DNA of 26,452 bases, taken from IMG/VR virus record IMGVR_UViG_3300027899_000060, positions 1-26,452 of that record, one strand, 5' to 3'. The first letter of the stretch is position 1; each line of letters begins with the position of its first letter. Of this stretch, positions 3,978-26,415 are shown one piece after another. This stretch comes from a virus. The notes under the pieces were generated by a model, which saw nothing but the letters and a program-made list of their open reading frames with translations, made no database searches and had not been told where the DNA came from. Position numbers and translations under genes: made by a program.

Positions 3978-4013
3978 ACCTATATTGTATCTTAGTTTGA
4001 ATCCTGTTAGAAG
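3978..4013 (-). promoter_or_regulatory. Putative phage late promoter B
   Basis: Read on the minus strand: CTTCTAAC (4013-4006), 16 nt spacer, TACAATATAGGT (3989-3978), then the ATG of the 3977 gene. The upstream box overlaps the terminase stop codon (TAA at 4009-4007). If TACAAT is a -10 box, transcription would begin at or within 1-2 nt of the start codon. Confidence 0.65.
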
Positions 4014-5155
4014 GAAAGATATGAGTCATCTGTGAAGTAATTCTCCTTGATGTAAGTTGCTGCATACCGTATGGCATCCATAGCATCATCCCATAGTTTG
4101 ACTGGCTCATCCGTTATCTGGTCGCCTACTTTTTTCCATTTGTAATTCTCATACTCCTTCTTAAGTTGAGGATGGTCCTCACAGATTATACCAAAGGTCT
4201 TGATGTTATCTATACCCTTCTTGACTACCTTGTTGGCATTCTCAATGTAATACCCTGCCCTATCTATCTCTGCTATGGTCTCAGGTCTTGAGTAGTCAGC
4301 CAGTATGTTTACGCTCTTATCAATACCTAACTGGTCCATCCTTGCAATTAGGTCAGTTGTGGTGAGGTAGCTCTCATAGATCACTGGTTCAATGTATAAG
4401 TCCTTATCCCTCCAGTAGACTCTGACCAAGGCAGTAGGGTGATTGTAACCAAAGTCAAGCCCATAGACAAACTCTGTGAACTTAGCAGGTCTGTGCTTAA
4501 CAAATGACCAGTTGGAGTAGATGTTACTCTTAGAGATAGCTTTCTCCCCAAGTGCATATATCTGGTACTGTGCCTCATCTGTTCGCTTCAAGTCTTCTAT
4601 CTGTTTCTTAATGCTTTCAGGTAGGAACGGGTTGTCCTTGTAGGTTGACTTGATGAGCACGCTCTCTTCCTTTGGTAGTTCATACAGCCATGAGTTGGAC
4701 TCAGATGGGTTGTAGTCAAAGATTAGCTTGCCCTCCGTTCGCATGTTGAGCTGAGTGAAGTCATCGTAATACAGCTCATTGGCTTCATTGCACCATGCCA
4801 GATCTCTCTTCCTTCCTCTAATCTTTTGCTCGTCATCCACTGAGAAGAACTCCACAATAGATCCATTGTCAAAGGTGTAGATGTGCTCAGACTTATTGTG
4901 CTTGGTCACCTCGTAGATATCCAAGTCCTTCATTATCTCGAGGAAGTCTCTCATCACTGTAGCCCTCAAGGCAGGGAAGGTCTTACGTATAATGCTCACT
5001 ACCTTGCCTCTGTTCTGCAGGCAGTAGACTATGATAAGCTGGCAAAGGCTGTAGGTCTTAGATGACCTTGAGCCGCCCTCGTTTATGATAAACCTGGACT
5101 CACTTGCCAGGGCTTCAAAGTTGCGCTCGAATATGACTGTGCTCTTAATCTCCAT
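4007..5155 (-). CDS. terL: Terminase large subunit (packaging ATPase and nuclease)
   Basis: This is the motor that threads phage DNA into proheads and cuts it. From the ATG at 5155 (an upstream TTG at 5164 is less likely) it has 382 residues, somewhat short for the family but complete. The ATPase domain shows a Walker A-like GGSRSSKT at residues 27-34 and a Walker B-like DLAWCNEANEL at about 118-128. The RNase H-like nuclease domain shows the expected acidic residues: D in GLDFGYNHPTAL (about 234), D in ADYSRPE (about 287) and the DD of LWDDAMDAIRYA (about 356-357). It follows the small subunit after a 63-nt gap holding a hairpin. The -35-like box of the next late promoter overlaps its stop codon. 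Confidence 0.95.
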   Translation of the reverse strand: MEIKSTVIFERNFEALASESRFIINEGGSRSSKTYSLCQLIIVYCLQNRGKVVSIIRKTFPALRATVMRDFLEIMKDLDIYEVTKHNKSEHIYTFDNGSIVEFFSVDDEQKIRGRKRDLAWCNEANELYYDDFTQLNMRTEGKLIFDYNPSESNSWLYELPKEESVLIKSTYKDNPFLPESIKKQIEDLKRTDEAQYQIYALGEKAISKSNIYSNWSFVKHRPAKFTEFVYGLDFGYNHPTALVRVYWRDKDLYIEPVIYESYLTTTDLIARMDQLGIDKSVNILADYSRPETIAEIDRAGYYIENANKVVKKGIDNIKTFGIICEDHPQLKKEYENYKWKKVGDQITDEPVKLWDDAMDAIRYAATYIKENYFTDDSYLSF

Positions 5156-5172
5156 TGTGTGCAATAGTTGGA

Positions 5173-5196
5173 CTATACCACTTATTAGTAGTATAG
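5173..5196 (-). repeat. Inverted repeat in the terS-terL gap
   Basis: CTATAC (5173-5178) and GTATAG (5191-5196) form a 6-bp stem that extends through a mismatch by ACT/AGT around a TATT loop. No T-run follows on the minus strand, so it does not look like a terminator. A TAnnTTTG box (TATCTTTG, 5216-5209) lies just upstream, so the hairpin could sit in a short terL leader. Function unknown. Confidence 0.4.
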
Positions 5197-5218
5197 TAAG
5201 AATTATGTCAAAGATACA

Positions 5219-5632
5219 CTATTTAATAATAGTAACCTTAATATCATTTATTGCCTGACCTTGAGTTGTAGTATCTACTCTCTCAGTTAGGTTGTTTAGT
5301 CGCTGGGTGATGGATGGGTTATACTGCCCTGCCATACCTCCAGTTATCTGGTCTTCTCTGATGACTCTCTTTATACGCGAACAGATGGCAACATACGCTG
5401 AATATCTCCCATCTCTATTTTCAAAGTATTGGTCAATACATCCTATGTTGTCATAACAGTAATTATAGAAGCCTTCAAATACAAGTGGTCTCTCAAGTGG
5501 TATAGCAGTTGCCTCACCCGTCTTATTAGAAAGTGAGTATTGATACCTTGGGTTTGACTTGCACCAATCCCTGTAAGCCTCGAATAAAGCCCACATTGCC
5601 TCAGGGGTTTCTATGTATTTATGCTTTGGCAT
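5219..5632 (-). CDS. terS: Terminase small subunit
   Basis: DNA-recognition partner of the terminase. I chose the ATG at 5632 (MPKHKYIETPEAMW, 137 residues) because the longer frame back to 5689 lies inside the neighbouring gene; with this start the overlap is only 14 nt. The pattern PEAMWALFEAYRDWCKSNP, then PLVFEGFYNYC, a helical YVAICSRIKRVIREDQ and GGMAGQYNPSITQRLNNL matches the phage DNA-packaging small-subunit layout: N-terminal helical DNA-binding part, central oligomerisation helices, C-terminal tail. It lies directly before the large subunit. It is presumably transcribed from the late promoter at 6040 as part of the cluster 6039-5875, 5891-5619, terS, terL. Confidence 0.85.
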   Translation of the reverse strand: MPKHKYIETPEAMWALFEAYRDWCKSNPRYQYSLSNKTGEATAIPLERPLVFEGFYNYCYDNIGCIDQYFENRDGRYSAYVAICSRIKRVIREDQITGGMAGQYNPSITQRLNNLTERVDTTTQGQAINDIKVTIIK

Positions 5633-5891
5633 CTGCCTTAGGTTTGCGTTTCTTTTTAGGCTTAGCCGTTGTCTCAGGTATTGGACCATCTATAGCCTTG
5701 TACTCTATCACAACAACATCCTCAGTGGTCTTAGTCACTACCTCCTCAAAGATATGCTTGAGACCGATTGACTGGTAATAGGATACGTTCTTAAGGTTAA
5801 TCTTGTTTACTACTATAGTCTTAGAACCTAAGATTCTATCATACACCTTGACAGTCTGCCCGATGTACTCTGGTTTAATTTTGTAATTCAT
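5619..5891 (-). CDS. Small protein with lysine-rich tail, upstream of terminase
   Basis: A 90-residue protein starting MNYKIKPEYIGQTVKVYD. The first 65 residues look like a small beta-rich domain. The tail is strongly basic (KPKKKRKPKADAKA), which could bind nucleic acid. It overlaps the preceding small membrane-protein gene by 17 nt and the terminase small subunit by 14 nt, so it belongs to the packaging cluster. I associate this kind of small gene with the position just ahead of terminase in Bacteroidota phages, but know no proven function. Confidence 0.7.
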   Translation of the reverse strand: MNYKIKPEYIGQTVKVYDRILGSKTIVVNKINLKNVSYYQSIGLKHIFEEVVTKTTEDVVVIEYKAIDGPIPETTAKPKKKRKPKADAKA

Positions 5892-6039
5892 TCTCTTTTA
5901 TTATAATAAATATTAAATAACCTGCTAATGTTGCACCTGAGAATTTAAACAGCAGGTACATGTTCTCATTGAATAATGCCAGGACCACACCCCATGCCAG
6001 GATGTAAGTTATAAGCCCTATGATATCAACACTCTTCAT
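5875..6039 (-). CDS. 54-residue membrane protein at the head of the packaging cluster
   Basis: I read this short frame by hand: ATG at 6039, TAA at 5877-5875. The product starts MKSVDIIGLITYILAWGVVL and has two hydrophobic stretches (about residues 5-22 and 28-47) separated by a short polar FNEN turn, ending KENELQN. It therefore looks like a two-helix membrane protein. Its ATG abuts a perfect TACAATATAGGT element lying inside the 3' end of the sigma-like gene. The gene overlaps the end of that sigma gene by 14 nt and the next gene by 17 nt. A holin-like or envelope-modifying role is possible but unsupported. Confidence 0.75.
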   Translation of the reverse strand: MKSVDIIGLITYILAWGVVLALFNENMYLLFKFSGATLAGYLIFIIIKENELQN

Positions 6040-6568
6040 ACCTATATTGTATTGACTTTATATTTTCTTTAATTTCTTTAATCAGGAAGTAGGCAGAGGT
6101 ACTGTTGATGTTGAAGTACTTAGCCAGTGCCGTCTGTGTTGAGTGCCCTTTATCGTAGTATGCCTCAAAGACTATCTGCTTGATGCGGTCGTGTTGCTGG
6201 CTTCTGTATATCTCAACCATTGCCTTCTTGAAGCTGTAGCGTTCCTCTATCTGTATCTTATGGTCAAGGTCTGTTGTGTCGTCTATGTCATCACCTAAGT
6301 GCTCCTGAGACCTATAGATGTCATCTCGCTTGGTCCTTGAGCCTTGAGTCCATATCAACTCATACTTGATCGTGTTGAGTAGGTAGCTCTTAGCCTTGTC
6401 TTGAGTCATCTCTGGAAGGTGTACCTTGGTGCAGTGGATGTAAGCGTTGTTGATGACGGCATCTGCATCTATTGAGGCAGGTATATTGAGCACCTTGAGG
6501 AAGTGCCTGGTGTACTTGAGCACCTCACTGTAGTTGTTAGCTACGTATCTATCCAGTTGCTCCTTCAT
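6026..6568 (-). CDS. Divergent sigma-factor-like protein
   Basis: I favour the ATG at 6568 (180 residues, MKEQLDRYVANNYSEVL), which overlaps the upstream gene by 20 nt; a GTG at 6616 would add 16 residues. The layout fits a small sigma-70/ECF protein. Residues about 12-75 are helical with a region-2-like pattern (DADAVINNAYIHCTKVHL, then AKSYLLNTIKYELIW). An acidic linker (LGDDIDDTTDLDH) follows. Residues about 112-172 resemble region 4: FKKAMVEIYRS, then a helix-turn-helix at STQTALAKYFNINSTSAYF followed by LIKEIKENI. Such a protein would guide host RNA polymerase to phage promoters. Its 3' end contains one of five copies of the proposed late promoter. Similarity to known sigma factors is weak, so this call rests on architecture and context; another HTH regulator is the alternative. 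Confidence 0.6.
   Translation of the reverse strand: MKEQLDRYVANNYSEVLKYTRHFLKVLNIPASIDADAVINNAYIHCTKVHLPEMTQDKAKSYLLNTIKYELIWTQGSRTKRDDIYRSQEHLGDDIDDTTDLDHKIQIEERYSFKKAMVEIYRSQQHDRIKQIVFEAYYDKGHSTQTALAKYFNINSTSAYFLIKEIKENIKSIQYRYEEC
6040..6075 (-). promoter_or_regulatory. Putative phage late promoter C, inside the sigma-like gene
   Basis: TACAATATAGGT (6051-6040) followed directly by the ATG of the 6039 gene. At the -35 position the match is weaker (AAATTAAA, 6075-6068), keeping the TAA shared by the other copies. The core encodes part of the sigma-like protein's C-terminus (SIQYRYEEC). Confidence 0.6.
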
Positions 6569-6755
6569 ACCAGATGTTAAAGTCTTTGAGCCATACCTTC
6601 CTACGTACCGATGCACAGAAGCACTCCTTATCCTTGATGCCAGTGACTCTACTCTTGATGCGTTGCAGTTGTATCAGGGTACGCTTGGTGAGTATCCTAT
6701 CCTCTGGCTGGTTGAGTAGCTCAGTTATGAGTTGTATATCAGTTTGTTCAAGCAT
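6549..6755 (-). CDS. Small Cys-containing protein upstream of the sigma-like gene
   Basis: The ATG at 6755 gives a 68-residue product (MLEQTDIQLITELLNQPEDR). The longer frame to 6920 runs through the neighbouring gene and has an Arg/His-rich, unprotein-like start, so I reject it. The protein is helical and basic (TKRTLIQLQRIKSRVTGIKD) followed by KECFCASVRRKVWLKDFNIWYE, with a CxC pair and an aromatic end. I recall similar small proteins in Bacteroidota phages but know no function. It overlaps the membrane-protein gene upstream by 31 nt and the sigma-like gene downstream by 20 nt, so it may be a cofactor or antagonist of that protein; this is inference only. Confidence 0.65.
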   Translation of the reverse strand: MLEQTDIQLITELLNQPEDRILTKRTLIQLQRIKSRVTGIKDKECFCASVRRKVWLKDFNIWYEGATG

Positions 6756-6955
6756 ACTGCTGTGAGTGACGTGGCACATGCCACAGTGAAGGATTGAGAA
6801 TAGATCAGTGTAGCCCAGAAGGAGGTACACTTCCAACACCCTAAGGCGGTGTGTAGCCAGTCGGGTAGTATCATGGTGTTGATGTAGTCTTGTATGGGTT
6901 CGAAGTGGGTGAACCACCATGTCATGACTAAGGGAGCTATGTATTGTATTATCAT
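6725..6955 (-). CDS. Small membrane protein with CWKC motif
   Basis: A 76-residue protein, MIIQYIAPLVMTWWFTHFEP. Hydrophobic stretches at about residues 2-16 and 44-66 suggest two membrane segments. Between them is C40-W-K-C43 followed by TSFWATL. The CxxC-SFW layout resembles small phage membrane proteins of the DUF1360 type; this is from memory. It is the first gene after a 194-bp gap with a nested inverted repeat, and it is followed by the sigma-like gene cluster with overlapping frames. Whether CxxC binds metal or is redox-active cannot be told. Confidence 0.65.
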   Translation of the reverse strand: MIIQYIAPLVMTWWFTHFEPIQDYINTMILPDWLHTALGCWKCTSFWATLIYSQSFTVACATSLTAVCLNKLIYNS

Positions 6956-7149
6956 GTGGGTAAAGATAGTGAAAATTTATAACAGTTGTTATGCGCCATT
7001 AAAACGTGCGCATAGCTTGGTGTTATAACAAAGGGGAACTGTTACACTCCCCCTGTTGGCTGCCATTGAAGGTGTTGCCAAGCACCTGCATTACTTGCAC
7101 GTCTGCTTTCGTGGATGGCTATTGCACCCCTTAATGGACATTGAACTGT
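6956..7149 (-). other. Gene-free gap with nested inverted repeat (6977-7028)
   Basis: TTATAACA (6977-6984) pairs with TGTTATAA (7021-7028). Inside, TATGCGC (6990-6996) pairs with GCGCATA (7008-7014), leaving a 5x6 internal loop and an 11-nt apical loop. On the minus strand AATTTTC follows, a weak U-tract. A further short hairpin, GGGGA/TCCCC followed by TTTG, lies at about 7033-7053. The element could be a terminator or attenuator ending the replication operon, or a protein-binding site. I find only 16- and 22-codon frames here, which I do not call. Confidence 0.5.
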
Positions 7150-7248
7150 TCAAGTATCAATCTGATTAGGGGGTAGGCTATCAAGCACCTCCTGTGGGGT
7201 GTAATATTGCCCGTCAATGTCAATCATTATCTGTACTAAGTAGTTCAT
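7150..7248 (-). CDS. 32-residue microprotein coupled to the XRE-like gene
   Basis: A hand-read frame, ATG at 7248 and TGA at 7152-7150, starting MNYLVQIMIDIDGQYYTPQE. The start overlaps the stop of the upstream HTH gene as ATGA, the arrangement used repeatedly in this genome. The peptide is acidic with a small hydrophobic N-terminal strand and no membrane segment. Coupling supports translation; no function can be assigned. Confidence 0.5.
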   Translation of the reverse strand: MNYLVQIMIDIDGQYYTPQEVLDSLPPNQIDT

Positions 7249-7457
7249 TTCAGCAAGTAATTAAACGCCTTATCATAGAACTCACCCTTCACTGACTTAC
7301 CATGCAGGAAGCGGTGAAGCGTAATGTTAGCCACTCCGATATCCTCTGCCATGTGTACTGCTCTGTTCCTACTGGATAGCTTATCCTTAAGCTCAGCCCT
7401 CACCCATTCAGTGAGGGTCTGATTATCTTGTAGATAGATGGTCTTAGAACGGGTCAT
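7245..7457 (-). CDS. Small XRE/Cro-like DNA-binding protein
   Basis: The ATG at 7457 gives 70 residues (MTRSKTIYLQDNQTLTEWVR). An ATG at 7496 would overlap the SSB gene by 53 nt, whereas 7457 leaves a 14-nt overlap. Residues about 33-64 (SRNRAVHMAEDIGVANITLHRFL, then HGKSVKGEFYDKAFNYL) have the spacing of a Cro/XRE helix-turn-helix, including the typical recognition-helix pattern GVANITLHRFLHGK. It is the penultimate gene of the replication/recombination operon and may autoregulate it. Confidence is good for HTH and low for target. Confidence 0.7.
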   Translation of the reverse strand: MTRSKTIYLQDNQTLTEWVRAELKDKLSSRNRAVHMAEDIGVANITLHRFLHGKSVKGEFYDKAFNYLLK

Positions 7458-7755
7458 CCTCAGCAAGTATTGTGAATGCATCCTGTACTTGTTCACCTAC
7501 TATCTTCCAGGCATCAAGGCTGTTGTAGAACTTATCACCCACTTGTCTACCTCGTAGGTTGAATGATACTTCCACTTCCTGACCTACCCCATACGGTTTG
7601 ATTATATCCATGCGGTCGTTTAGGGTTTGGAACATGATGTCTTGAGGGTACTTATCACCTGTAGTGATCACGAACTCTCTCACTTGAAACTTATCCGATA
7701 TCACTTTGATAGGATTGATGAGCTTGATAGCTCCTTTGACTGTTAAATCTGCCAT
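7444..7755 (-). CDS. ssb: DUF3127-type single-stranded DNA-binding protein
   Basis: A 103-residue protein. REFVITTGDKYPQDIMFQTL, then GQEVEVSFNLRGRQ and SLDAWKI follow the DUF3127 pattern, a small OB-fold-like family found mostly in Bacteroidota and linked to ssDNA binding. The last residues, LAEDDPF, form an acidic tail ending Pro-Phe like the partner-recruiting tip of bacterial SSB. The gene abuts the exonuclease gene (1-nt overlap, TAATG) and follows the ERF annealase, a layout typical of phage single-strand annealing modules. It would coat ssDNA during replication and annealing. Confidence 0.8.
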   Translation of the reverse strand: MADLTVKGAIKLINPIKVISDKFQVREFVITTGDKYPQDIMFQTLNDRMDIIKPYGVGQEVEVSFNLRGRQVGDKFYNSLDAWKIVGEQVQDAFTILAEDDPF

Positions 7756-8375
7756 TATTTATTATTTAATTCATTTACATACTGTGCATAGTACTCAGAG
7801 CAATATCTGAGCCTCTCCATTATCTGCTCTTCATACAAAGCCTCTTTCTCATATCTCACTACAGTTATCCTGTGTGTACTTGGGATGTGGTCAACTCTGT
7901 GGATAGACATGTTATCCCACTCAGTGAGCAACTCATCGGGTGTAGTGTACATGGTGTAGATTAACTCAAAGCTTGGTCTATCATACAACCACATGTAAGC
8001 TCTACCTTGCCACTCATAATCACTTGACTCAGCCTCTGATGGTGTTGCTGGGAAGGTCTCTAATGACCAAGAGCTTTTGATGTCAATGATGAGGTCATCT
8101 GTTATGATATCACAGCATCCTGACATGTACTCATTAGTCACTCGTTCCTCATTCTTAGTGTAGTTGGTGAAGCGAACTGTGTTGAGTAGGTCAATTCCTT
8201 CCTGCTCCCACTCTGTGCCTTTAATCATTGGCTTCGTTCTAAGCTCTGTGTTGAAGCCGTAGAAGTCCTGCTTAGCAATTCTACGTATTTCTGACTTAGC
8301 GGTCTCAGATAGCATCTCTGACTTGCTACGAGGGTTTGTCATTAGCTTCCCTAACTGTGATGGTCTCCATTTCAT
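7755..8375 (-). CDS. YqaJ/RecE-like PD-(D/E)XK exonuclease
   Basis: A 206-residue nuclease of the lambda-exonuclease/YqaJ type. GTEWEQEGIDLL (residues 53-64) corresponds to the helix-borne Glu motif. GCCDIITDDLIIDIKSS supplies the active-site D89 and D98-x-K100. YEWQGRAYMWL (about 120-130) supplies the conserved Gln motif. Partnered with the ERF annealase it would resect dsDNA ends to make ssDNA. The start overlaps the ERF stop by 4 nt (ATGA) and its stop overlaps the SSB start, so the three are co-translated. Length and motif order are as expected. Confidence 0.85.
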   Translation of the reverse strand: MKWRPSQLGKLMTNPRSKSEMLSETAKSEIRRIAKQDFYGFNTELRTKPMIKGTEWEQEGIDLLNTVRFTNYTKNEERVTNEYMSGCCDIITDDLIIDIKSSWSLETFPATPSEAESSDYEWQGRAYMWLYDRPSFELIYTMYTTPDELLTEWDNMSIHRVDHIPSTHRITVVRYEKEALYEEQIMERLRYCSEYYAQYVNELNNK

Positions 8376-8986
8376 AGTGCTGCCTCCTGTTCTTTAGTTA
8401 GGTTAAACTTTGCTTTGAGCTCCTCAACCTTATAATCACCTGCTGCTATCTTAGCCAGTGCATTGTTGAAGCGTTCTGTAGATAGTGACTCCTTTGCTTT
8501 GGGCTTTGGTTGTTCCTTCACTGGCTCAGATGCCATGTTGCCATCGTCATCCACAGCCTGTAGTGAGAGAATACTTTGGAGGGTGTACCTGCGATAGTAA
8601 GTTATGGCACTACCCATCTTCTGTGGATCTATGCCAGTAGGTAAGTCCATACATGACTCAATCATATTACCTGACTCAACATCTATTATCTGAGTGCATA
8701 CACTATTGCCATGGATAGGCTGTAATAATAGCAGACCATTCTCAAGTAGAATAGGCTCAACTGCCTCAATGATTGCATTCAAGTCGGCATATGACTTCTT
8801 GAAGTGTGGGTTATTAGCATTCTTGGTCACCTTGCCAATTGCTAACTTGCATTTGTACACCTTTTGGTGTAGGCTGAGTACAGCTTGAGTGCTCTCTGCC
8901 TCATTTGCTTGTCTGATTTTCTCAGACGTACTGATTAGTTCTTTCATTTCCTTTGTATTTTCATCAAAGTTAATAAAGTTTTGCAT
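8372..8986 (-). CDS. erf: ERF-family single-strand annealing recombinase
   Basis: A 204-residue protein matching the ERF superfamily: VYKCKLAIGKVTKNANNP, HFKKSYADLNAIIEAVEPIL (about residues 61-80), then GSAITYYRRYTLQSILSLQA and DDDGN (125-150). ERF proteins anneal complementary strands during phage recombination and circularisation. The C-terminus is a lysine-rich linker followed by a short helical domain (FNNALAKIAAGDYKVEELKAKFNLTKEQ), common in this family. The gene leads the ERF-exonuclease-SSB trio. The start at 8986 lies behind an A/T-rich leader. Confidence 0.9.
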   Translation of the reverse strand: MQNFINFDENTKEMKELISTSEKIRQANEAESTQAVLSLHQKVYKCKLAIGKVTKNANNPHFKKSYADLNAIIEAVEPILLENGLLLLQPIHGNSVCTQIIDVESGNMIESCMDLPTGIDPQKMGSAITYYRRYTLQSILSLQAVDDDGNMASEPVKEQPKPKAKESLSTERFNNALAKIAAGDYKVEELKAKFNLTKEQEAAL

Positions 8987-9004
8987 ATTAGAAAAATAAA
9001 GTTA

Positions 9005-9367
9005 TTAACAATTATATGTTAACTCCTTACCAGTAAGTGCAAAGTATAGGTTTTCCAGTTGGTGAACGTATTTGATATGATTATATCTTATAAAGTGATC
9101 ACCATTTTTAATGACAAAATGATTAGTTATACCAAATTCATACCCATAGTGATAGTCTTTGACATATACTCTATCAGATACAGGCTTAAACCCAAACCTA
9201 ATTAACCAGCTCTCATCTATCTCCATTGCTTGATAGAAGTCATCAAGGTCATCATCTAATAAGTTGCTAAGGTCTTCCAAGTTTATCAGGTCACTCTTAT
9301 AAGTGCCATCTCCTAATTCTATTTTATAGGTATTACCTAATCTAATCTCGTGTGAATCTAATGTCAT
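9005..9367 (-). CDS. Conserved phage protein of unknown function (120 aa)
   Basis: Starts MTLDSHEIRLGNTYKI and ends with KYVHQLENLYFALTGKELTY. I recognise the ending as a motif shared by many Bacteroidota phage proteins, which usually begin with an 'RIGN' strand, carry a WLIRFGF element (here about residues 54-60) and close with this helix. No enzyme motif or membrane segment is visible. The low-GC leader (AAATATATAG) ahead of the ATG is typical of the host's non-SD starts. Function unknown. Confidence 0.75.
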   Translation of the reverse strand: MTLDSHEIRLGNTYKIELGDGTYKSDLINLEDLSNLLDDDLDDFYQAMEIDESWLIRFGFKPVSDRVYVKDYHYGYEFGITNHFVIKNGDHFIRYNHIKYVHQLENLYFALTGKELTYNC

Positions 9368-9370
9368 ATT

Positions 9371-13402: not shown

Positions 13403-13416
13403 AGTTCTTACTTTTA

Positions 13417-13489: not shown

Positions 13490-13497
13490 CAAATATA
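13490..13497 (-). promoter_or_regulatory. Candidate host-type promoter for the replication operon
   Basis: TATATTTG on the minus strand matches TAnnTTTG, the Bacteroidota -7 box. It would start a transcript near 13483, giving a leader of about 80 nt before the primase ATG at 13402. I see no clear TTTG -33 box at the usual spacing, so confidence is moderate. Confidence 0.4.
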
Positions 13498-13757: not shown

Positions 13758-13786
13758 GATAATCAATAAATACAAAGTATGCTAAG

Positions 13787-14206
13787 TTAGGTATAAATAT
13801 TTGTTTGAACTATATTATAGGCAGAAATAAAATCCTGAGGCTGATGCTCATATTCGTTGTTCTTTATCCGTTTGACTATATTCATTAGGTCAGTTGTGTT
13901 ACGTGCGTTCAAAACCTCTGTAAAGATGTCTCTGCGTATCTCTACCAATGGTGCAAATATCTCTAATTCCTTTTGAATGTACATTTTATAGATGCTGTCA
14001 TTTGTTTTGATAAAGTGTTTGTCTGATCGTATTGCATGTATGATTGTGGCATGAGTTAAATTAAATACATCTGCTATAGCTTGCAACGTCATGCCCTCTT
14101 TGTGTAGTAACCCAGCTAAGAACATTCTGCGGTATACATATTCTCTGTGGCGGTCTTTACGGTTTAACCCGGTCTCCTTGATGTAGTTAATTATTGTTGT
14201 TATCAT
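13787..14206 (-). CDS. DnaA domain IV-like helix-turn-helix protein
   Basis: A 139-residue protein. Residues about 20-64 (YVYRRMFLAGLLHKEGMTLQ, then AIADVFNLTHATIIHAIRSD) resemble the DNA-binding C-terminal domain of DnaA, including a THATIIHA recognition helix comparable to DHTTVIHA. The remaining 75 residues are helical and unassigned (FAPLVEIRRDIFTEVLNARN). No ATPase domain is present, so it is not an initiator by itself; it could bind origin repeats or compete with host DnaA. It is the last gene of its operon, next to a terminator and the putative origin, which supports a replication-control role. Its start overlaps the preceding microprotein by 20 nt. Confidence 0.7.
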   Translation of the reverse strand: MITTIINYIKETGLNRKDRHREYVYRRMFLAGLLHKEGMTLQAIADVFNLTHATIIHAIRSDKHFIKTNDSIYKMYIQKELEIFAPLVEIRRDIFTEVLNARNTTDLMNIVKRIKNNEYEHQPQDFISAYNIVQTNIYT

Positions 14207-14824: not shown

Positions 14825-15040
14825 TTATTCTGATTTAAAGGTTTCGTTGTAGTATTGTTCTGCATCATAATATTTAACATAAAAATCTGTTCTTTGACCG
14901 TCTTCAACTGCATCTATTATCTGCTCCTTCTCCATTTCTTTGGCTTGGTTCTCAAGTTTATTAATAAATATCCTTGCTTCAGTAGAAACATTTATTTTAT
15001 TAATTTCTTGTACTAACCACTCTACTGCTGTCTGTTTCAT
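14825..15040 (-). CDS. Cassette-like protein MKQTAVE...ETFKSE, unknown function
   Basis: A 71-residue, mostly helical protein: MKQTAVEWLVQEINKINVST, then FINKLENQAKEMEKEQIIDA and YYDAEQYYNETFKSE. It abuts the next gene without a gap. The N-terminal MKQTAVEWLVQE and C-terminal YYNETFKSE match a family I recall from flavobacterial phages. No catalytic motif is seen. Confidence 0.7.
   Translation of the reverse strand: MKQTAVEWLVQEINKINVSTEARIFINKLENQAKEMEKEQIIDAVEDGQRTDFYVKYYDAEQYYNETFKSE
14829..14850. repeat. 22-bp direct repeat, copy 2
   Basis: Identical to 14544-14565. It encodes the ETFKS end of the 15040-14825 gene. The distance between copies (285 bp) equals one gene, so homologous recombination between them would delete or duplicate one gene exactly. 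Confidence 0.85.
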
Positions 15041-16032: not shown

Positions 16033-16040
16033 CAAATGTA
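16033..16040 (-). promoter_or_regulatory. Candidate host-type early promoter
   Basis: TACATTTG on the minus strand matches TAnnTTTG and would start RNA near 16026, about 20 nt upstream of the ATG at 16006. No -33 TTTG box is visible at standard spacing. Confidence 0.4.
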
Positions 16041-19809: not shown

Positions 19810-19845
19810 ACCTATATTGTATTACGTGTGAGTAATAATTAAAAA
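19810..19845 (-). promoter_or_regulatory. Putative phage late promoter D
   Basis: TTTTTAAT (19845-19838), 16 nt spacer, TACAATATAGGT (19821-19810), then the ATG at 19809. Its T-rich upstream box is the T-run of the preceding terminator. Confidence 0.6.
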
Positions 19846-19865
19846 AGCCCCACCGAAGTGAGGCT
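19841..19865 (-). terminator. Rho-independent terminator after the tail-tube gene
   Basis: On the minus strand AGCCTCAC (19865-19858), loop TTCG, GTGGGGCT (19853-19846), then TTTTT (19845-19841). The stem has 8 bp with one G-T pair and a stable UUCG tetraloop. It ends the capsid operon just before late promoter D. Confidence 0.9.
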
Positions 19866-19887
19866 CTTAGTTATAATCTATGGCAGA

Positions 19888-20436
19888 TTAAGGAGCAGGT
19901 ACAGGTACAGGAGGCTCAGTGATAGGACCTAAAATAGCCTCATCAACTACGTATGACAAAGTCTCATTCTCCGCTATCAGTGTAACGGAATATTTACTTC
20001 CATCCGCGCGAGCTGTTCCAGAACCTTCACCCGTTGCAGATAACTGCAAGAATGGGAAGTACCACCAAATGCCATTAGCATCTAATAATAAACCAGTAAG
20101 GTATCTTTGACCACCAGCTAAGATTTGAATAGCTCTTGACTTCTCTTGTTGTCTTCTGTGGAACATCAAGTTGATAGTCTGAGTAACGTAGCTTGAGCCG
20201 TTAATTAAGTCAATTGCAGACTCCTCTGTGTAAGATGAAGTGTTGCGTTTGAACTCAAGTTCAATGAAAGGCATTAAAGGGTCAACTAATGTGATACCGT
20301 CTACCTCCCATTTAGTTCCAGTCTCATCTGTAGAAATAGATGCGATGTTATCTTGTTCTGTTACAAAGAACCTATAGATACCACCTGAGTTGTTGTCGCA
20401 ACTTTTTTCGATTGTTTCTAATGTAATACAAGCCAT
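19888..20436 (-). CDS. Probable major tail tube protein
   Basis: A 182-residue protein beginning MACITLETIEKSCDNNSGGI with FFVTEQDNIASI, a central helix-like INLMFHRRQQEKSRAIQILA and a closing beta region (LQLSATGEGSGTARADGSKY, then SVTLIAENETLSYVVDEA). The GSGTARADGSKYSVTL ending is characteristic of tail-tube-like proteins in Bacteroidota phages as I recall. The C-terminus is a proline-rich tail (PPVPVPAP). It follows the capsid gene after a weak terminator, consistent with high but separately tuned output. A capsid decoration role is the alternative. Confidence 0.6.
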   Translation of the reverse strand: MACITLETIEKSCDNNSGGIYRFFVTEQDNIASISTDETGTKWEVDGITLVDPLMPFIELEFKRNTSSYTEESAIDLINGSSYVTQTINLMFHRRQQEKSRAIQILAGGQRYLTGLLLDANGIWWYFPFLQLSATGEGSGTARADGSKYSVTLIAENETLSYVVDEAILGPITEPPVPVPAP

Positions 20437-20456
20437 TTGTGTAATTTTTTATGTGT

Positions 20457-20486: not shown

Positions 20487-20493
20487 TTATATT

Positions 20494-21426
20494 TTAGATA
20501 TAGAATGCGTTATACAAAACTATCTCAGCAGGGTTCGTGTAATGGAAGCCAGCCTTCATGTTTGCACGAGTTCTCAAGTAAGGCTCAGCAACAGTGTCAG
20601 ATAAGTTTACAGCTTTCAATGCTTTTGAGTCTCCTTCAGCATCAAATGCATAGATAAGGTTGGTTCTCAAAGTCAATAAGATAGTGTTGTCTGGCATACC
20701 TTCACATACAACTACATTGATACCTAAGAAAGTCAATCCTAATGGTAATGTAACATAAGTTTGAGTGTTACCTTGAGCAGCTTTCAACTCATAAGCATTA
20801 GCCACGTTTGTTGAAACATACAACCTAAGCTCTGATTTTTTACGTACAATAGATGCAGGAGCAGCGTTAACTACTGATTCTAATACAGTCAATACATTTG
20901 CAGTAGTGATAGCAGCTGAATATAAACCTATAACATCAGCATCATAGAACATTGGAAATAAGTATCCAGTACATAAAGACAATAACGGGTCTAAAGATGC
21001 AGTGTTACCTTGCCATCTCAACAACTCTAAGTCTTGACCAATTACATTAGCCATCTCATTCCAGTAGTATGACATGAAAGATGCTACAGTGAAGTCACCA
21101 TTAGAACCTTGAGCCATTTGTAAAGCTAAAAAAGACTGCTCTAGGTCAAATTGACACAGCTGCGCCATAGCAGAAAGTGCACATACGTCAATGTCAATAG
21201 CATCTAATGAATCAGTTGGTGCACTAAAGTTGCACGTTGAAGCCTGTAATAATGAACCGAAAGTTACATTAGCCAATTTTGTTTTTGACTTAATTCCTGG
21301 TAAAGTTCTGAAGTTGTTAGCAATATCAGGACTTGATAAATAAGCCTTAGAGTAGAACTCATCAGGGTTCGCACATAAAAGTGCATTTGTTTCGATATCT
21401 AAATCGAATTTAAGATTGCGTGTCAT
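20494..21426 (-). CDS. Major capsid protein
   Basis: A 310-residue protein starting MTRNLKFDLDIETNALLCAN. It directly follows the protease-scaffold gene (1-nt gap) and precedes a weak terminator, the usual setting of the coat gene. Beta-rich segments (SIVRKKSELRLYVSTNVANA, then LPLGLTFLGINVVVCEGMPD and NTILLTLRTNLIYAFDAEGD) and the long helix-like MSYYWNEMANVIGQDLELLR are consistent with a HK97-fold A and P domain. The length is normal. Sequence similarity to textbook capsids is low, so the call rests on fold-like pattern and context. Confidence 0.8.
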   Translation of the reverse strand: MTRNLKFDLDIETNALLCANPDEFYSKAYLSSPDIANNFRTLPGIKSKTKLANVTFGSLLQASTCNFSAPTDSLDAIDIDVCALSAMAQLCQFDLEQSFLALQMAQGSNGDFTVASFMSYYWNEMANVIGQDLELLRWQGNTASLDPLLSLCTGYLFPMFYDADVIGLYSAAITTANVLTVLESVVNAAPASIVRKKSELRLYVSTNVANAYELKAAQGNTQTYVTLPLGLTFLGINVVVCEGMPDNTILLTLRTNLIYAFDAEGDSKALKAVNLSDTVAEPYLRTRANMKAGFHYTNPAEIVLYNAFYI

Positions 21427-21427
21427 G

Positions 21428-22378
21428 TTATTTGGTTTTTGAAAATTTTACAAATTCTTTGAATTTCTCATGAGCAGTCATAGCCATTGGTGCTACTTCC
21501 TCCTCAGTCTCAGCTGAAAGACTTTCTTCCAGTTGGTTCTTTAAGTCTGCTATCATAGCAACAAGTTGGTTAACTTGCTCCTCAATAACGGGTGCAACAA
21601 TTGCAAGGATAGCCTCTGCATCAAGCACAGGGTCAACTGCCATTGCAACCTCTTCCTCCTCAACTACAGCCTCATCTTCAGCTATAGCTTCTTCCTCAGG
21701 CATGGCTGCTGCCATCTCCTCTTCTGCTGGTGCAGGTACGTCTTTGATCTCAATAACTTCTCCGTCTTTTACTACGTAGATTTTATCTTCAATCAGGTGT
21801 TCTCCATCTGGTAAAGTCATGGTATATTTATTTAAGTGTTCCGATAATTTCATACCAAGGAAGCCCTCTATTGAGTAGCCCACTTGACCTGACTCAACTA
21901 ACTTATCGTAGTAGTCTTTGTCAGTTACTTGGCTTGTTAGCATTAGAGTGCCTTTAGGGACCTCAATGCCGTATGTTGTGAATGCTTTGTCAGTCTCAGG
22001 GTTGTCTACTATCCAAGCCTCAAGGATGTACGCTGGTACTATCTTATCTTGATTGTGCTCCAGGTTAAAGATATTCTTGTTCTGTAGGTTCATCATGAAC
22101 TTAGCATGTATCTGCTCAATCACTTCTGCTGAGAATTGCACATCATACTCTTCATCAGTTTCTTGATCCCATCTATAGATTTGCATAGGTATCATGGCAG
22201 GTGCAACAATACGCATCTTAACACTATCACTGAATGACATAGGTGCAACATGAGAATTGAATGCTAGCCCTTTAACCTTTATGGCAGGCTTGGATGTGAA
22301 TGCTATCATTTCAACACCTAAGTCCTCCCCGTCTGAGTAAGCCTCATCAATAGTAATTTTGTACACTGGTCTGTCCAT
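21428..22378 (-). CDS. XkdF-type prohead protease fused to scaffold domain
   Basis: A 316-residue protein. Residues about 1-180 match the XkdF/S78_2 phage serine protease pattern: FNLEHNQDKIVPAYILEAWI with catalytic-type H108, VPKGTLMLTSQVTDKDYYDK, and GQVGYSIEGFLG with S169. Residues about 215-300 are a highly acidic, Ala/Glu-rich stretch (EEEMAAAMPEEEAIAEDEAV) followed by a coiled coil (EEQVNQLVAMIADLKNQLEE), and the end is basic (HEKFKEFVKFSKTK). This is a protease-scaffold fusion that shapes the prohead and then cuts itself away. Its ATG abuts the fifth late-promoter copy. It is directly followed by the capsid gene. Confidence 0.85.
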   Translation of the reverse strand: MDRPVYKITIDEAYSDGEDLGVEMIAFTSKPAIKVKGLAFNSHVAPMSFSDSVKMRIVAPAMIPMQIYRWDQETDEEYDVQFSAEVIEQIHAKFMMNLQNKNIFNLEHNQDKIVPAYILEAWIVDNPETDKAFTTYGIEVPKGTLMLTSQVTDKDYYDKLVESGQVGYSIEGFLGMKLSEHLNKYTMTLPDGEHLIEDKIYVVKDGEVIEIKDVPAPAEEEMAAAMPEEEAIAEDEAVVEEEEVAMAVDPVLDAEAILAIVAPVIEEQVNQLVAMIADLKNQLEESLSAETEEEVAPMAMTAHEKFKEFVKFSKTK

Positions 22379-22414
22379 GCCTATATTGTAGAAAGTTGTA
22401 TATTTGTTAAAAAA
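22379..22414 (-). promoter_or_regulatory. Putative phage late promoter E
   Basis: TTTTTTAAC (22414-22406), 15-nt spacer, TACAATATAGGC (22390-22379), then the ATG at 22378. It differs from the other copies by C for T just before ATG and by a spacer one base shorter. It overlaps a plus-strand TAnnTTTG box. Confidence 0.6.
22399..22406 (+). promoter_or_regulatory. Candidate host-type promoter for the plus-strand island
   Basis: TATATTTG fits TAnnTTTG and would start RNA near 22413, about 9 nt before the ATG at 22422. It lies on top of the upstream half of late promoter E on the other strand, so the two may exclude each other. No clear -33 box. Confidence 0.4.
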
Positions 22415-22421
22415 TAATTCT

Positions 22422-22970
22422 ATGGTAACAATTTTAGGAAGGGAAGTACCTAATCAACTGAATGAGTTGACGGTCTTACAGTTTGAACAGATCACAAATA
22501 TCCATGCCAACAATGAACTGGATGCAATAGCTAAGCACCTTGAAGTGTTTGAGTTGTTAGGTGTGCCAGAGGTAGACTTTGAGGATGTATCTATTGAGGA
22601 GTTCAAGGAATGTGTTAAGGTATTCAATGACCTTAGTGGTAAGCCTGAGCTACAGCAGTCCATTGAGATGGAAGGATACACTTATAAGGCATTCGAGGGT
22701 GAGACATTCAGACTATCAGTGAAGGATACTAAGCACATTGAGAAGGTTATGCACTCCAAGCACAAGGGATACATAGCTGAGTTACTGGCTATCCTGTTTA
22801 AACGTGATGACTTGACCAAGGCTGAGCACTATGCAGAGGCACACATCAAGCACAAAGCAAAAATGATACGTGAACTTAAGGCTGAGTTAGCAGTACCTTA
22901 CTTAGTTGAGATAGGTCAGAAGTTAGCCAAACAAATGCCTAAGGATGCACCTGCCGAAGTCGTGGAGTGA
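22422..22970 (+). CDS. Putative tail-assembly chaperone, G-like
   Basis: The ATG at 22422 gives 182 residues (MVTILGREVPNQLNELTVLQ); an in-frame TTG at 22404 is less likely. Helical and charged, with LNELTVLQFEQITNI, then EVFELLGVPEVDFEDVSIEE and FKECVKVFNDLSGKPELQQS. The same order of elements recurs in the next gene, so the two are paralogues. Small tandem paralogues ending in a basic helical tail (KAKMIRELKAELAVPYLVEI) resemble tail-assembly chaperones of the gpG type. It is on the opposite strand to all other genes in the window, which is odd for such a protein. The call is tentative. Confidence 0.45.
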   Translation: MVTILGREVPNQLNELTVLQFEQITNIHANNELDAIAKHLEVFELLGVPEVDFEDVSIEEFKECVKVFNDLSGKPELQQSIEMEGYTYKAFEGETFRLSVKDTKHIEKVMHSKHKGYIAELLAILFKRDDLTKAEHYAEAHIKHKAKMIRELKAELAVPYLVEIGQKLAKQMPKDAPAEVVE

Positions 22971-23679
22971 GATAGATGTCTTCCAGTTCAAAGAGATTAG
23001 GTCACTATATACCATTGAGGAAACTTTCTCCAGGGAAATAGAGATACTTGCAACACTGGCTGACATACCATCCGATGACTTAGAGGACTTGGACATAAGT
23101 GAAGTGGGTGATATGCTTAAAGATATCACCTTCATTAACTCTGAGCCGTCTAAGTTCTATAAGCATGTACTTGGTGAGTGGAAGTTCAAGCCATTATCTA
23201 AGCTCACAGTGGGTGAGTTCATTGACCTTGAGTACTTCTTTGCCAATGACTATATCAAGCACATCTCACATGTAGCCTCTATCCTTTACAGGAAGCACAG
23301 CATCAATGAGTGGGGTGACTTAGTCTTTGAGCCTTACAAGTATTCACCCTTTGAACGGGCTGAGCTGTTTGATGAGTACGGTATCAATGAGATATACGGT
23401 ATAATCACTGAGTACTTAGCATTCAGGACAACGTTCATGGAGAAGTATGAGCTACTCTTCCAGGCAGATGAGTCAGAAGAGGAAGAGGAAGCCATCAAGC
23501 CTGCCAACTCTCAAGATGCCAAGGCTGAGCAGGAGCATAAGAGTGCTATCAAGTGGAGCTGGGAACGGTTGCTGTATGGGCTGTGCAATGAGGACCTAAC
23601 TAAGTTTGACCAGGTCACTGACATGCCTCTTGTTCTAACCTTTAATATGATGGCTATGAAAAAAGAGTTAAACATCTAA
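22945..23679 (+). CDS. Putative tail-assembly chaperone, GT-like
   Basis: A 244-residue protein, MHLPKSWSEIDVFQFKEIRS, whose first half parallels the preceding gene (WSEIDVFQFKEIRSL versus LNELTVLQFEQITNI; LADIPSDDLEDLDISE versus LGVPEVDFEDVSIEEF). An acidic linker (ADESEEEEEAIK) is followed by SAIKWSWERLLYGLCNEDLT and DMPLVLTFNMMAMKKE, similar in layout to the C-terminal part of T-type chaperones. It starts at an internal ATG 26 nt before the upstream stop, in the +1 frame. Because it has its own N-terminal domain, coupling is more likely than frameshifting. Its end overlaps the convergent 23668-24120 gene by 12 bp. Confidence 0.5.
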   Translation: MHLPKSWSEIDVFQFKEIRSLYTIEETFSREIEILATLADIPSDDLEDLDISEVGDMLKDITFINSEPSKFYKHVLGEWKFKPLSKLTVGEFIDLEYFFANDYIKHISHVASILYRKHSINEWGDLVFEPYKYSPFERAELFDEYGINEIYGIITEYLAFRTTFMEKYELLFQADESEEEEEAIKPANSQDAKAEQEHKSAIKWSWERLLYGLCNEDLTKFDQVTDMPLVLTFNMMAMKKELNI

Positions 23680-24120
23680 AGGATAGCCTACTTGGAAGCC
23701 AGCAGGTGGGTCTAAAGCCTCAAATGTATACACTATTTTTTGGTTCTTTTCAAGTATCTCAGCCACTTGTAGGATAGGATACCGTTTTGTCATCCACTCA
23801 GTGTACTGTGAGTATATCTCAGCAGTGATACCAGCCGCATTAAGCTCCTGTGTGAACGTTGCAACGTAGTCTCTTGGTGTAATTACTCCACCGTTCCATA
23901 AGAATGCGCCATTATTAAGGAAAATAAAGTAGTACATGGCTATGATTTGTATCTCCAGTTTCTCAAAGCCTGTTATCTTGGCATTGATTCTGATAGATTC
24001 TACCAATGTGCCTTGACCATCAACAACATCATTTCTGATTATACGTTTAAGTATAGTTGCCATCCTTCTCCTTGTAGGATAAAGGACATTAAATTCACCA
24101 GTGTTAGCGTATCTTGCCAT
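23668..24120 (-). CDS. Virion-operon protein of unknown function (150 aa)
   Basis: MARYANTGEFNVLYPTRRRM followed by ATILKRIIRNDVVDGQGTLV, ESIRINAKITGFEKLEIQII, AMYYFIFLNNGAFLWNGGVI and TPRDYVATFTQELNAAGITA. The order (basic N-terminus, 'SIRI', a hydrophobic strand, 'FLNNGAF', 'PRDYVATF') loosely resembles the HK97-gp10/tail-completion layout, but I cannot confirm it. It is the last gene of the appendage operon and converges on the plus-strand island with no visible terminator. Confidence 0.65.
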   Translation of the reverse strand: MARYANTGEFNVLYPTRRRMATILKRIIRNDVVDGQGTLVESIRINAKITGFEKLEIQIIAMYYFIFLNNGAFLWNGGVITPRDYVATFTQELNAAGITAEIYSQYTEWMTKRYPILQVAEILEKNQKIVYTFEALDPPAGFQVGYPLDV

Positions 24121-24371
24121 TATTCAAAGGGTGGGGGTGTAGGTTTCGGTTCGTATGGTATCATCTCAAGGTCCTTAACCCATAAGAAGTCAGGGTTAAC
24201 ACATTGCTCAATCTCTTCTATTGAGATAACCCAGTTATCATTGAGGTCTTGGATAGGGTTGAAGTAGCTATCAGGTGCATACAACTGACCTATCAACTCA
24301 TCCTTTTGCAACTCAGTAAGCAAGCCTACGTACGTTATTTTTTGTTCTGCTGTTAGTTCTCTTAGTTTCAT
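24120..24371 (-). CDS. Small acidic virion-operon protein (83 aa)
   Basis: MKLRELTAEQKITYVGLLTE and LQKDELIGQLYAPDSYFNPI, QDLNDNWVISIEEIEQCVNP, then a proline-rich end (EPKPTPPPFE). Short overlaps on both sides (4 nt and 1 nt) tie it to the lectin-like gene and the 150-aa gene. Similar small genes follow tail-fibre genes in Bacteroidota phages as I recall; no role known. It may be an assembly chaperone for the appendage. Confidence 0.65.
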   Translation of the reverse strand: MKLRELTAEQKITYVGLLTELQKDELIGQLYAPDSYFNPIQDLNDNWVISIEEIEQCVNPDFLWVKDLEMIPYEPKPTPPPFE

Positions 24372-25447
24372 ACTTGACGTCCTAAAGTTGTTTGAAATGC
24401 TTGTACCGCTGTGTAAAAGTTAGCTACTTCGGTATCTGTTAAGCCGTCAGATATATAAGCAAATCTAAAATCATTTTTTACAAATCCATATCCCGACCCT
24501 ATTTGTAAAGCACCAATCCATGTGTTCAAATTAGGTAGTGTGCCACCGCTATTTCCTGTAGCTACTTGAGCACCGTTAACATATAAATCTGTTAAAGTTG
24601 ATGTTTGTTTTGACGCTGAAAAAAATCCTCGCATTGCAGTAGTTAAAAAACTTACTAAATTTCCATTAACTCTTGAAATAAAAGTTGTATTAGTTTTTCC
24701 TAAAATAAAGGCTTGAGATGCTGAATTTAAAGAACCAATAGGTATCGGGTCTAAGTCCGTTTCAACTATATTACTTCCTGTATAATATCCTAAAGAATTA
24801 GAATTAACATTTAAAATAGTAGACGGAACAAATCTTGTATCAGCATATCCATTACTCCCGTTAGGTCTGTAACCGTTAGCATCCCAAGTACCTCCGCCAA
24901 TAAATAACAATCTATATGCCGCATCTAAGTCTCGTGGGTCTTTAAGATTCCATTTCATAGTTGTTGCTGTAGACCCTATAAATGGGTACAAAGCTTTCAT
25001 TTTTGTCCAAACGCTATACCCTTTCAAATCAATAGTCAAGCTATTAGTAGCAGCCTTTTGTGTGGTATCTGTAATGGTTGCAGATGTTATGAACGCTTGA
25101 GCATCAAAGTCAAATATCTGAGCTAATGTGTTTGATGTTGCTGTTGCATTGCCAAAGGCATTTGTGCCAGTCACCTTACAAGTGATATTAGAGGCATTAC
25201 CTGCATCTGCCTGGACCAATACATAAGTACTTGATGTTGCGCCACCTATAAGAGTTGCACCCCTAAACCATTGATATGTATAAACAATTACAGGTGTGCC
25301 AGTCCATGTACCTGTAGTAGATGTCAATGTACTGCCAACTACTTGAGTGCCACTGATAACAGGTGCAACAGTATTAGCAGGAGGTGTACCTCCACTTGAT
25401 ACCTCCCAAGCTGTGCGTAAAAATACGCTGTTACCGTAGCCTATCAT
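24368..25447 (-). CDS. Appendage protein with Ig-like and lectin-like domains
   Basis: A 359-residue protein. Residues about 20-110 are an Ig-like domain: APVISGTQVVGSTLTSTTGT, then YTYQWFRGATLIGGATSSTY and ITCKVTGTNAFGNATATSNT. Residues about 150-355 look like a concanavalin-A-type beta sandwich (LYPFIGSTATTMKWNLKDPR, GYADTRFVPSTILNV, LTDLYVNGAQVAT, FRFAYISDGLTDTEVANFYT). Such proteins decorate capsids or form fibres that bind glycans. The C-terminal domain is strikingly AT-rich (22-27% GC in two 60-nt lines near 24661-24840) against about 47% in the Ig part, suggesting a recently swapped host-binding domain. Start and stop overlap neighbours by 1 and 4 nt. Confidence 0.8.
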   Translation of the reverse strand: MIGYGNSVFLRTAWEVSSGGTPPANTVAPVISGTQVVGSTLTSTTGTWTGTPVIVYTYQWFRGATLIGGATSSTYVLVQADAGNASNITCKVTGTNAFGNATATSNTLAQIFDFDAQAFITSATITDTTQKAATNSLTIDLKGYSVWTKMKALYPFIGSTATTMKWNLKDPRDLDAAYRLLFIGGGTWDANGYRPNGSNGYADTRFVPSTILNVNSNSLGYYTGSNIVETDLDPIPIGSLNSASQAFILGKTNTTFISRVNGNLVSFLTTAMRGFFSASKQTSTLTDLYVNGAQVATGNSGGTLPNLNTWIGALQIGSGYGFVKNDFRFAYISDGLTDTEVANFYTAVQAFQTTLGRQV

Positions 25448-25716
25448 TATGCAAGTATAAGCAATACACTGCCACTTGTTAAAGTAACACCACTAAACTG
25501 TTGAGCATTGACAGCACGTATGATAGTACCTGCCTTAACAGCCGTTGCTGGTGCAGCAATATAGGTTGCTTTTACATCTGTGCCTGCTATTCTAATAGCA
25601 CTGAACACAGTATCCTCAAGTACTACAATAGCATTGATTGTTGTTGTTTTTGCGACTGTGTTATTAAGTACAAAGCTTCCTTGGTTTGCTATTAAGATGT
25701 CGTTATCTGTTGCCAT
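25447..25716 (-). CDS. Small beta-rich virion protein (89 aa)
   Basis: MATDNDILIANQGSFVLNNT followed by TTTINAIVVLEDTVFSAIRI and VKAGTIIRAVNAQQFSGVTL, TSGSVLLILA. Alternating small hydrophobic and polar residues, a GTIIRAVNAQQFSGVTLTSG turn and no charged helices suggest a beta-prism or decoration-like fold. It lies 12 nt after the fibre-like gene, and its stop overlaps the lectin-protein start (TAATG). Likely part of the same appendage. Confidence 0.7.
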   Translation of the reverse strand: MATDNDILIANQGSFVLNNTVAKTTTINAIVVLEDTVFSAIRIAGTDVKATYIAAPATAVKAGTIIRAVNAQQFSGVTLTSGSVLLILA

Positions 25717-25728
25717 TTTTATTATTTA

Positions 25729-26379
25729 TTAGTATATTTTATTTAGTACAAAGTTCTGTGATTGAATCTTATTATTTGTCTTAGCAAGTCCCCACTCAGC
25801 TGTGATAGTAAGTGTATTACTAACAGTAGTATCAAAGGTAGTATTGCTTATCAAGGCAAAATTATTACCTGCTATCTCACCTGCTGCATTATGATTGTAG
25901 GTATACTGTCCATTAACAAACAACTCAGCTACTCCTGCTGCACCAATCTTGGTAACTGTGAAGTCAATAGTAAGCTCAAAGAATTTATTAGTTGTTATCT
26001 TCATAGAGAATACTCCAGCATCTGCTATAGTAACACCGTTTGATTTTATTCTTATACGTATTGTCTCATTACTTGCACATGATAGGTTGCCACACATCTT
26101 AGCCACAAAGCTATTTCCTACACTGAACGCATTAGCAGGAACAAATAATGTGCCTACTCCTGCACCCACTAAAGAGGTCTCTGTGATAGTGTTTGTGATA
26201 AGAGTACCCAAGGCAGTCTGAGCATAAAGCCCATAAGAGCCAGCCGAAATTATTTCTTGACCAGTGATTGACTTAGTAACATATCCCGAGCCAGTATCCT
26301 CACTTATCTCAAGCAAGTCTGTTGCCTCAAGGTTAGCCCCTTTAGGGGTCATCTGTGATATCTTTTGTCTGCTCGCCAT
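25729..26379 (-). CDS. Tail-fibre/appendage-like protein (216 aa)
   Basis: MASRQKISQMTPKGANLEAT with DLLEISEDTGSGYVTKSITG resembles the common 'KISELTPKGA-L---DLLEIS' start of phage fibre and structural proteins, an N-terminal attachment domain. The C-terminal 140 residues are beta-rich (GVGTLFVPANAFSVGNSFVA, then TIRIRIKSNGVTIADAGVFS and TITAEWGLAKTNNKIQSQNF), typical of a fibre tip of the TNF/C1q-like type. The ATG abuts a late promoter copy, so it leads the appendage operon. The exact location on the virion is unknown. Confidence 0.75.
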   Translation of the reverse strand: MASRQKISQMTPKGANLEATDLLEISEDTGSGYVTKSITGQEIISAGSYGLYAQTALGTLITNTITETSLVGAGVGTLFVPANAFSVGNSFVAKMCGNLSCASNETIRIRIKSNGVTIADAGVFSMKITTNKFFELTIDFTVTKIGAAGVAELFVNGQYTYNHNAAGEIAGNNFALISNTTFDTTVSNTLTITAEWGLAKTNNKIQSQNFVLNKIY

Positions 26380-26415
26380 ACCTATATTGTATTAACCTGG
26401 TAAATTAGTTATAAG
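26380..26415 (-). promoter_or_regulatory. Putative phage late promoter A
   Basis: CTTATAAC (26415-26408), 16-nt spacer, TACAATATAGGT (26391-26380), then the ATG at 26379. The upstream box differs at a single base from that of promoter B and has identical spacing. It lies within the end of the preceding frame. Confidence 0.65.

Follow-up and report, generated by a model that had tools for sequence, protein, structure and literature searches.

Late regulators of the RinA/ArpU type in Gram-positive phages are encoded beside the terminase gene, and extracytoplasmic function (ECF) sigma factors, group 4 of the sigma-70 family, consist of sigma2 and sigma4 domains joined by a linker, with sigma1.1 and sigma3 absent. 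Among phage-encoded sigma factors, SaPh711_gp47 of Salmonella phage 7-11 has a region-4-like C-terminus; the late promoters of this phage are bipartite, GTAAtg-(16)-aCTA, its early genes have host sigma70 promoters, and both promoters and sigma have been tested experimentally (PMC8948821). In phiEco32, gp36 directs middle and late transcription from the element tAATGTAtA, starting 6–8 nucleotides (nt) downstream (PMC4281155, PMC4331800), and in the close phiEco32 relative SU10 gp36 is labelled an ECF sigma (PMC4281155). Promoters of leaderless genes carry TANNNT about 12 nt before the ATG, with almost none found in Bacteroidetes (PMC3160421), and 5.5% of the mRNAs of Flavobacterium psychrophilum are leaderless (PMC9723704). 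Here we describe five near-identical elements in a 26,452-base stretch of IMG/VR virus record IMGVR_UViG_3300027899_000060 (hereafter the window), an incomplete virus record; they are probably bipartite late promoters read by host core RNA polymerase together with an ECF-like sigma factor encoded by the phage itself.

By analogy, this system would work like 7-11 gp47 and phiEco32 gp36, its nearest known counterparts, in different phages and with near-leaderless promoters. It has in common with 7-11 a putative phage sigma with a sigma4-like C-terminus, bipartite late promoters and host-type early promoters, although 7-11 is a large enterobacterial podophage with another promoter sequence. With phiEco32 it shares a phage sigma that would act at short conserved elements, whereas phiEco32 has a single-element promoter and no region 4; the window phage combines a sigma4-like half with an upstream block, a pairing that fits the rule suggested by 7-11 and phiEco32. 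As in those phages, one sigma-like gene per record accompanies the cluster-leading elements, five in the window, with sigma activity predicted for its product. Terminase adjacency, late operon control and a weak RinA match of two family members recall the RinA/ArpU regulators, from which the candidate differs in its predicted sigma2-like half and in having no match above cut-off. Unlike the surveyed leaderless promoters, those of the window appear coupled to a factor of the phage's own, and leaders do occur in divergent clades.

Five elements lead gene clusters on one strand

The elements (sites A to E) and their upstream blocks are as follows.

3975 to 3989, minus strand: site A, -10 block and start codon of the 499-amino-acid gene, TACAATATAGGTATG; predicted transcription start at 3977
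4006 to 4012, minus strand: site A upstream block TTCTAAC, which includes the terL stop codon
6037 to 6051, minus strand: site B, -10 block and start codon of the packaging cluster, within the last codons of the candidate sigma gene
6068 to 6075, minus strand: site B weak upstream block, AAATTAAA
19807 to 19821, minus strand: site C, -10 block and start codon of the portal-lysis cluster
19838 to 19844, minus strand: site C upstream block TTTTAAT, at the terminator tail
19843 to 19868, minus strand: intrinsic terminator immediately ahead of site C
22376 to 22390, minus strand: site D, -10 block and start codon of the protease-capsid cluster, TACAATATAGGCATG
22406 to 22412, minus strand: site D upstream block TTTTAAC
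26377 to 26391, minus strand: site E, -10 block and start codon of the 216-amino-acid gene
26408 to 26414, minus strand: site E upstream block TTATAAC

The window contains exactly five copies of the 15-mer TACAATATAGGYATG, always on the minus strand, against a chance expectation of 0.0004–0.0005 (order-1 and order-2 models). The positions are exactly those listed in an earlier note made from the sequence, four copies ending in GGTATG and one, at 22376, in GGCATG. The 11-mer TACAATATAGG likewise has five matches, all minus, and its reversed control none; no further copy lies in the window, in agreement with the earlier claim that internal and early genes lack the element. Each copy does lead a gene cluster, and family matches identify the packaging, portal and protease-capsid clusters; the labels ‘tail tip’ and ‘appendage’ proposed for the other two found no such backing, the leader genes at sites A and E being without family match. 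From their gene content, the clusters are predicted to be expressed late.

Upstream, TTCTAAC, TTTTAAT and TTATAAC (sites A, C and E) stop 16 nt before TACAAT, and TTTTAAC (site D) 15 nt before it. The spaced upstream block described earlier is thus borne out at four sites and is weak at site B; the shared TAA, described as often part of AAC, is followed by a base that varies between sites (C, T or A), with AAC at A, D and E and AAT at C, an arrangement 15–16 nt from TACAAT that corresponds to the layout of ECF promoters, in which a -35 with AAC stands 15–17 nt from the -10. Across the entire minus strand TTnTAAY has just 22 occurrences, yet it stands at -23 or -22 in four of the five sites, which are not homologous to one another (positions counted from the T of TACAAT). 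With A, C, D and E weighted equally and only contexts with the exact core used, T at -23, -22 and -20 and A at -18 are invariant and -19 is mostly A, and most spacer positions between the blocks carry little information. A T7-like single-subunit RNA polymerase, its gene lying in the missing part of the genome, would account for a TATAGG-like core almost invariant across 11–12 nt; we regard this as the least probable of the readings weighed here, since two blocks with a variable spacer typify sigma promoters and nothing alike appeared in family searches of the window. PF00940 was also not matched in 12 near-complete relatives, a weak test in which the controls were without the family too.

Promoters rather than start-codon context

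Positionally, TACAAT at each of the five sites spans the stretch from 12 to 7 nt ahead of the start codon's A, so that a -10-type hexamer begins 12 nt before the ATG, as in leaderless promoters, and transcription would be expected to begin at the A of the ATG. A start at or within 1–3 nt of the start codon is likely at all five sites. The elements could instead be a translation-start signal or leader with no promoter role, as the motif usually abuts the ATG and Bacteroidota lack Shine-Dalgarno sites, making alternative start signals plausible. This we consider very improbable. The motif outlives displacement of the ATG by 13–22 nt, which argues that it is not start-codon context: among 254 distinct contexts of TACAATATAGG, 227 directly abut an ATG and 27 have it 16–22 nt off, and TAATATAGGT, the motif as it reads in L097, L107, L124 and L171, stands well upstream of the ATG. 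Moreover, it is found solely ahead of cluster-leading genes, has a second block at fixed spacing, and places G at -3, contrary to the A-3/A-6 preference of Flavobacterium ribosomes (PMC6847099). At site C the terminator lies directly upstream and its tail enters the upstream block, so a new transcription start is expected within the last ~30 nt; the terminator-like T tract is also retained in relatives.

Site B offers a further view of the constraint, as it lies within coding sequence. It encodes QYRY in the candidate sigma gene, and all but one of the 81 distinct contexts spell this with precisely the codons CAATATAGGTAT, leaving almost no synonymous variation. In the 29.6-kb relative L340 (JAIXRY010000011.1) the sigma tail reads QYKY, and its sites A and E likewise read ATATAAG; this match argues that DNA rather than protein dictates the sequence. 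In the window the embedded promoter thereby fixes the C-terminus (QYRY) of the candidate sigma protein. The five elements are thus almost certainly promoters and not start-codon context. The earlier note had proposed a candidate phage-specific late regulon and preferred promoters to a translation signal, and conservation of the motif in relatives, ATG displacement, the terminator at C and clade-specific -10 sequences support both well; the contrast it drew is softened, in that elements of the close clade would also define near-leaderless starts.

A candidate ECF-like sigma gene upstream of the packaging cluster

6026 to 6568, minus strand: probable ECF-like phage sigma of 180 amino acids, with sigma2 at about residues 3–83, a linker, and sigma4 at about 100–180

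The gene starts at a conserved ATG (an upstream GTG is not conserved), its 3' end spans the packaging promoter at site B, and it overlaps the gene at 5875–6039 by 14 nt. It is present once in each of 25 near-complete relatives (25/25) and has hundreds of relatives in IMG/VR. A tblastn search of the protein against 50,697 phage records returned no match, gp36 and gp47 not being directly compared. Structurally, AlphaFold2 models of the window protein (pLDDT 77, pTM 0.42) and of a homologue with about 40% identity (pLDDT 79, pTM 0.40) both show a helical half resembling sigma2, then a disordered linker and four helices resembling sigma4, the ECF order of domains at a length within the class range of about 170–200 amino acids. 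In both Foldseek searches the top 20 matches were sigma factors or the sigma-like PhyR domain, led by 9n9q_C and followed by SigH, SigL, AlgU and sigmaE among others. By VIA, the C-terminal halves scored Z 8.8 and 8.5 against 3mzy and 7.6 and 7.2 against 2h27 (sigmaE region 4 on its -35 DNA), and the N-terminal halves 6.4 and 8.1 against 5uxx. At the sequence level, the five NCBIfam families most matched by 27 family members comprised four sigma-70/ECF families and RinA, all weakly; TIGR02937, TIGR02943 and TIGR02985 were matched below their curated cut-offs (best 1.9e-4), and RinA by two of the 27 (best E 6.1e-4).

The assignment is thus chiefly one of predicted structure, with weak sequence support; on this footing the product of 6026–6568 is, with good confidence, a divergent ECF-like sigma and the reader of the late promoters, of a lineage overlooked by current family libraries. 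An ECF-like sigma had been hinted at by the AAC blocks, and the probable factor lies within the window itself. Could the promoters instead be read by host polymerase together with sigma-A or an ECF sigma of the host, the gene encoding a RinA/ArpU-type DNA-binding late activator? The gene just precedes terminase, as those regulators do, two members show the RinA match given above, and T-12, A-11 and T-7 are common to the motif and the Flavobacterium -7 element (PMC6847099). We judge this explanation unlikely, as all five sites lack the TTTG of the host -7 box, the models show a sigma2-like half besides sigma4, and the -10 part varies by clade.

Conservation and drift among relatives

Recurrence in relatives, which the earlier note had put forward as a check, was clear: all 154 copies of TACAATATAGG in capsid-gene relatives are in sense orientation (154/154), and 23 whole records hold 3–6 copies each, always on one strand, with one match overall for the reversed control pattern. 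The close clade retains all five orthologous sites with few exceptions, represented by 45, 12, 35, 24 and 29 distinct upstream sequences. Lone exact 15-mer matches in contigs without homologues resemble chance and were set aside.

Evolutionarily, clades whose sigma proteins are 40–50% identical keep the layout and alter the -10 sequence. A search for ATATAGG was unsuccessful there because other -10 sequences are used: AATAATATAGGT at site A of clade 2, [TG]ACAATATAAGT at three sites of L340, TGCAACATAGG in the c3a clade, TAATATAGTC/TAATATTGGT in c43, and TAATATATAT and GATAATATAG in c45. These start-proximal motifs were found via orthologous leader genes, a blind k-mer search being swamped by coding sequence. 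Most are preceded by TAAAC- or GAAAC-type blocks, and divergent clades retain TCTAAAC-N15 upstream of the altered -10 sequences, a recurrence that makes a chance origin of the upstream block unlikely. Some c45 leaders measure 18–37 nt; leaderless placement is therefore a trait of the window's clade and not of the system. Judged by these motifs, co-variation of factor and promoter across clades appears strong but not perfect. On balance, we incline to the view that a deeply divergent ECF-like sigma lineage has diversified across small uncultured phages of Bacteroidota, hundreds of them, with a -10 specificity that drifts along with the factor under a fixed layout, with late mRNAs leaderless and the packaging promoter held within the last codons of the sigma gene.

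Several observations weigh against a phage sigma reading bipartite promoters. Site B, with AAATTAAA, lacks TTnTAAY, and at the other four sites the upstream block coincides with another feature, namely the terL stop codon at A, the terminator T tract at C, a divergent host-type promoter at D and, apparently, the tail of a reading frame further upstream at E, so part of its conservation may be due to what it overlaps. Model pTM is just 0.40–0.42, Foldseek gives no E-value better than 1e-3, and Z scores of 8–9 are moderate for helical proteins. Pfam, PHROG and PDB sequence searches of the 180-amino-acid protein gave no match of note, leaving it with no Pfam or PHROG family, and hhalign of the sigma family profile against 20 real ECF proteins, drawn from genomes in the same phylum as the metagenome-assembled genome (MAG) into which L340 is binned, was not significant and equalled shuffled controls. 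In some clades, too, the -10 variant differs from site to site. A tblastn search of the protein against 50,697 phage records returned no match, gp36 and gp47 not being directly compared.

A proposed early-to-late switch

Functionally, we posit that the early/middle block would be transcribed from host-type-looking promoters (TAnnTTTG), located by consensus match, and that the sigma, as the last gene of this block, would then recruit host core RNA polymerase to sites A–E, which have the form TTnTAA(C)-N15/16-TACAATATAGG. Sigma4 would recognise the upstream block and sigma2 the TACAATATAGG block, with the packaging, capsid, portal-lysis and remaining two late clusters activated at once; sigma activity, domain-to-block assignment, start sites and timing are all predictions of the model.

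16033 to 16040, minus strand: host-type -7 box TACATTTG before the first early-block gene; consensus match only
13490 to 13497, minus strand: host-type -7 box TATATTTG before the primase-helicase; consensus match only
22399 to 22406, plus strand: host-type -7 box TATATTTG for the divergent plus-strand genes, interleaved with site D; consensus match, retained in relatives

Late promoter D and the divergent host-type promoter lie within about 40 bp (22376–22422), the latter facing plus-strand genes at 22404–23679, of which the 22945–23679 protein has no PHROG match. The two may be mutually exclusive and thereby form an early-late switch. A sigma70-type consensus scan gave the same counts as shuffles and was uninformative here.

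If the model holds, expression order becomes predictable in an uncultured phage family, a new sigma lineage is added, and factor and promoters that change together across clades provide a natural data set for the evolution of sigma specificity. In Bacteroidota, whose sigma-A reads very different promoters, factor and promoter might also be put to use for orthogonal expression, and leaderless late mRNAs, if true, would be unusual in that phylum.

Gene content, genome and a second repeated element

Genes identifiable in the window by family matches are TerL, TerS, portal, protease, capsid, Erf, exonuclease and a Bacteroidetes-type (BT4734-like) primase-helicase, and among named phages the primase and capsid match mainly phages of Flavobacteriia and other Bacteroidota. 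The family is an uncultured, freshwater one, with 350 IMG/VR matches to the capsid gene and about 450 to the sigma gene; the open-access literature searched held no account of it or of its sigma. Near-complete relatives have genomes of about 29–31 kb, and in a 36.7-kb relative motif copies 1 and 6 are spaced 30,256 bases, as expected for a repeated 30.26-kb unit. L340 is binned into a 0.8-Mb pond MAG, and genomes sampled from that MAG's phylum are mostly 0.5–1.1 Mb; L340 could be a phage contig placed in the wrong bin, or it could point to a small-genome host.

Two further sites mark cluster boundaries:

16219 to 16199, minus strand: intrinsic-terminator-like site after the portal-lysis cluster
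20486 to 20464, minus strand: intrinsic-terminator-like site between the capsid gene and the gene at 19888–20436

The early block also encodes a 139-amino-acid protein (13787–14206) with a DnaA C-terminal-like helix-turn-helix, matched below cut-off, and a DUF3127 protein (7444–7755). A second repeated element, AACCTTTAAATCAGAATANAATG, is found on the minus strand of the window at 14843 and 14558, ahead of small early-region genes and 3–5 nt from their ATG, and recurs in at least 120 IMG/VR stretches (loci L452 onward), phages of 60–224 kb included, often in arrays of small genes spaced about 200–235 nt. Of its 191 distinct sites, 126 have it in frame with the upstream protein, to which it adds the C-terminal tag (YYN)ETFKSE*; the other 65 do not, so the constraint on it is at least partly at the DNA or RNA level.

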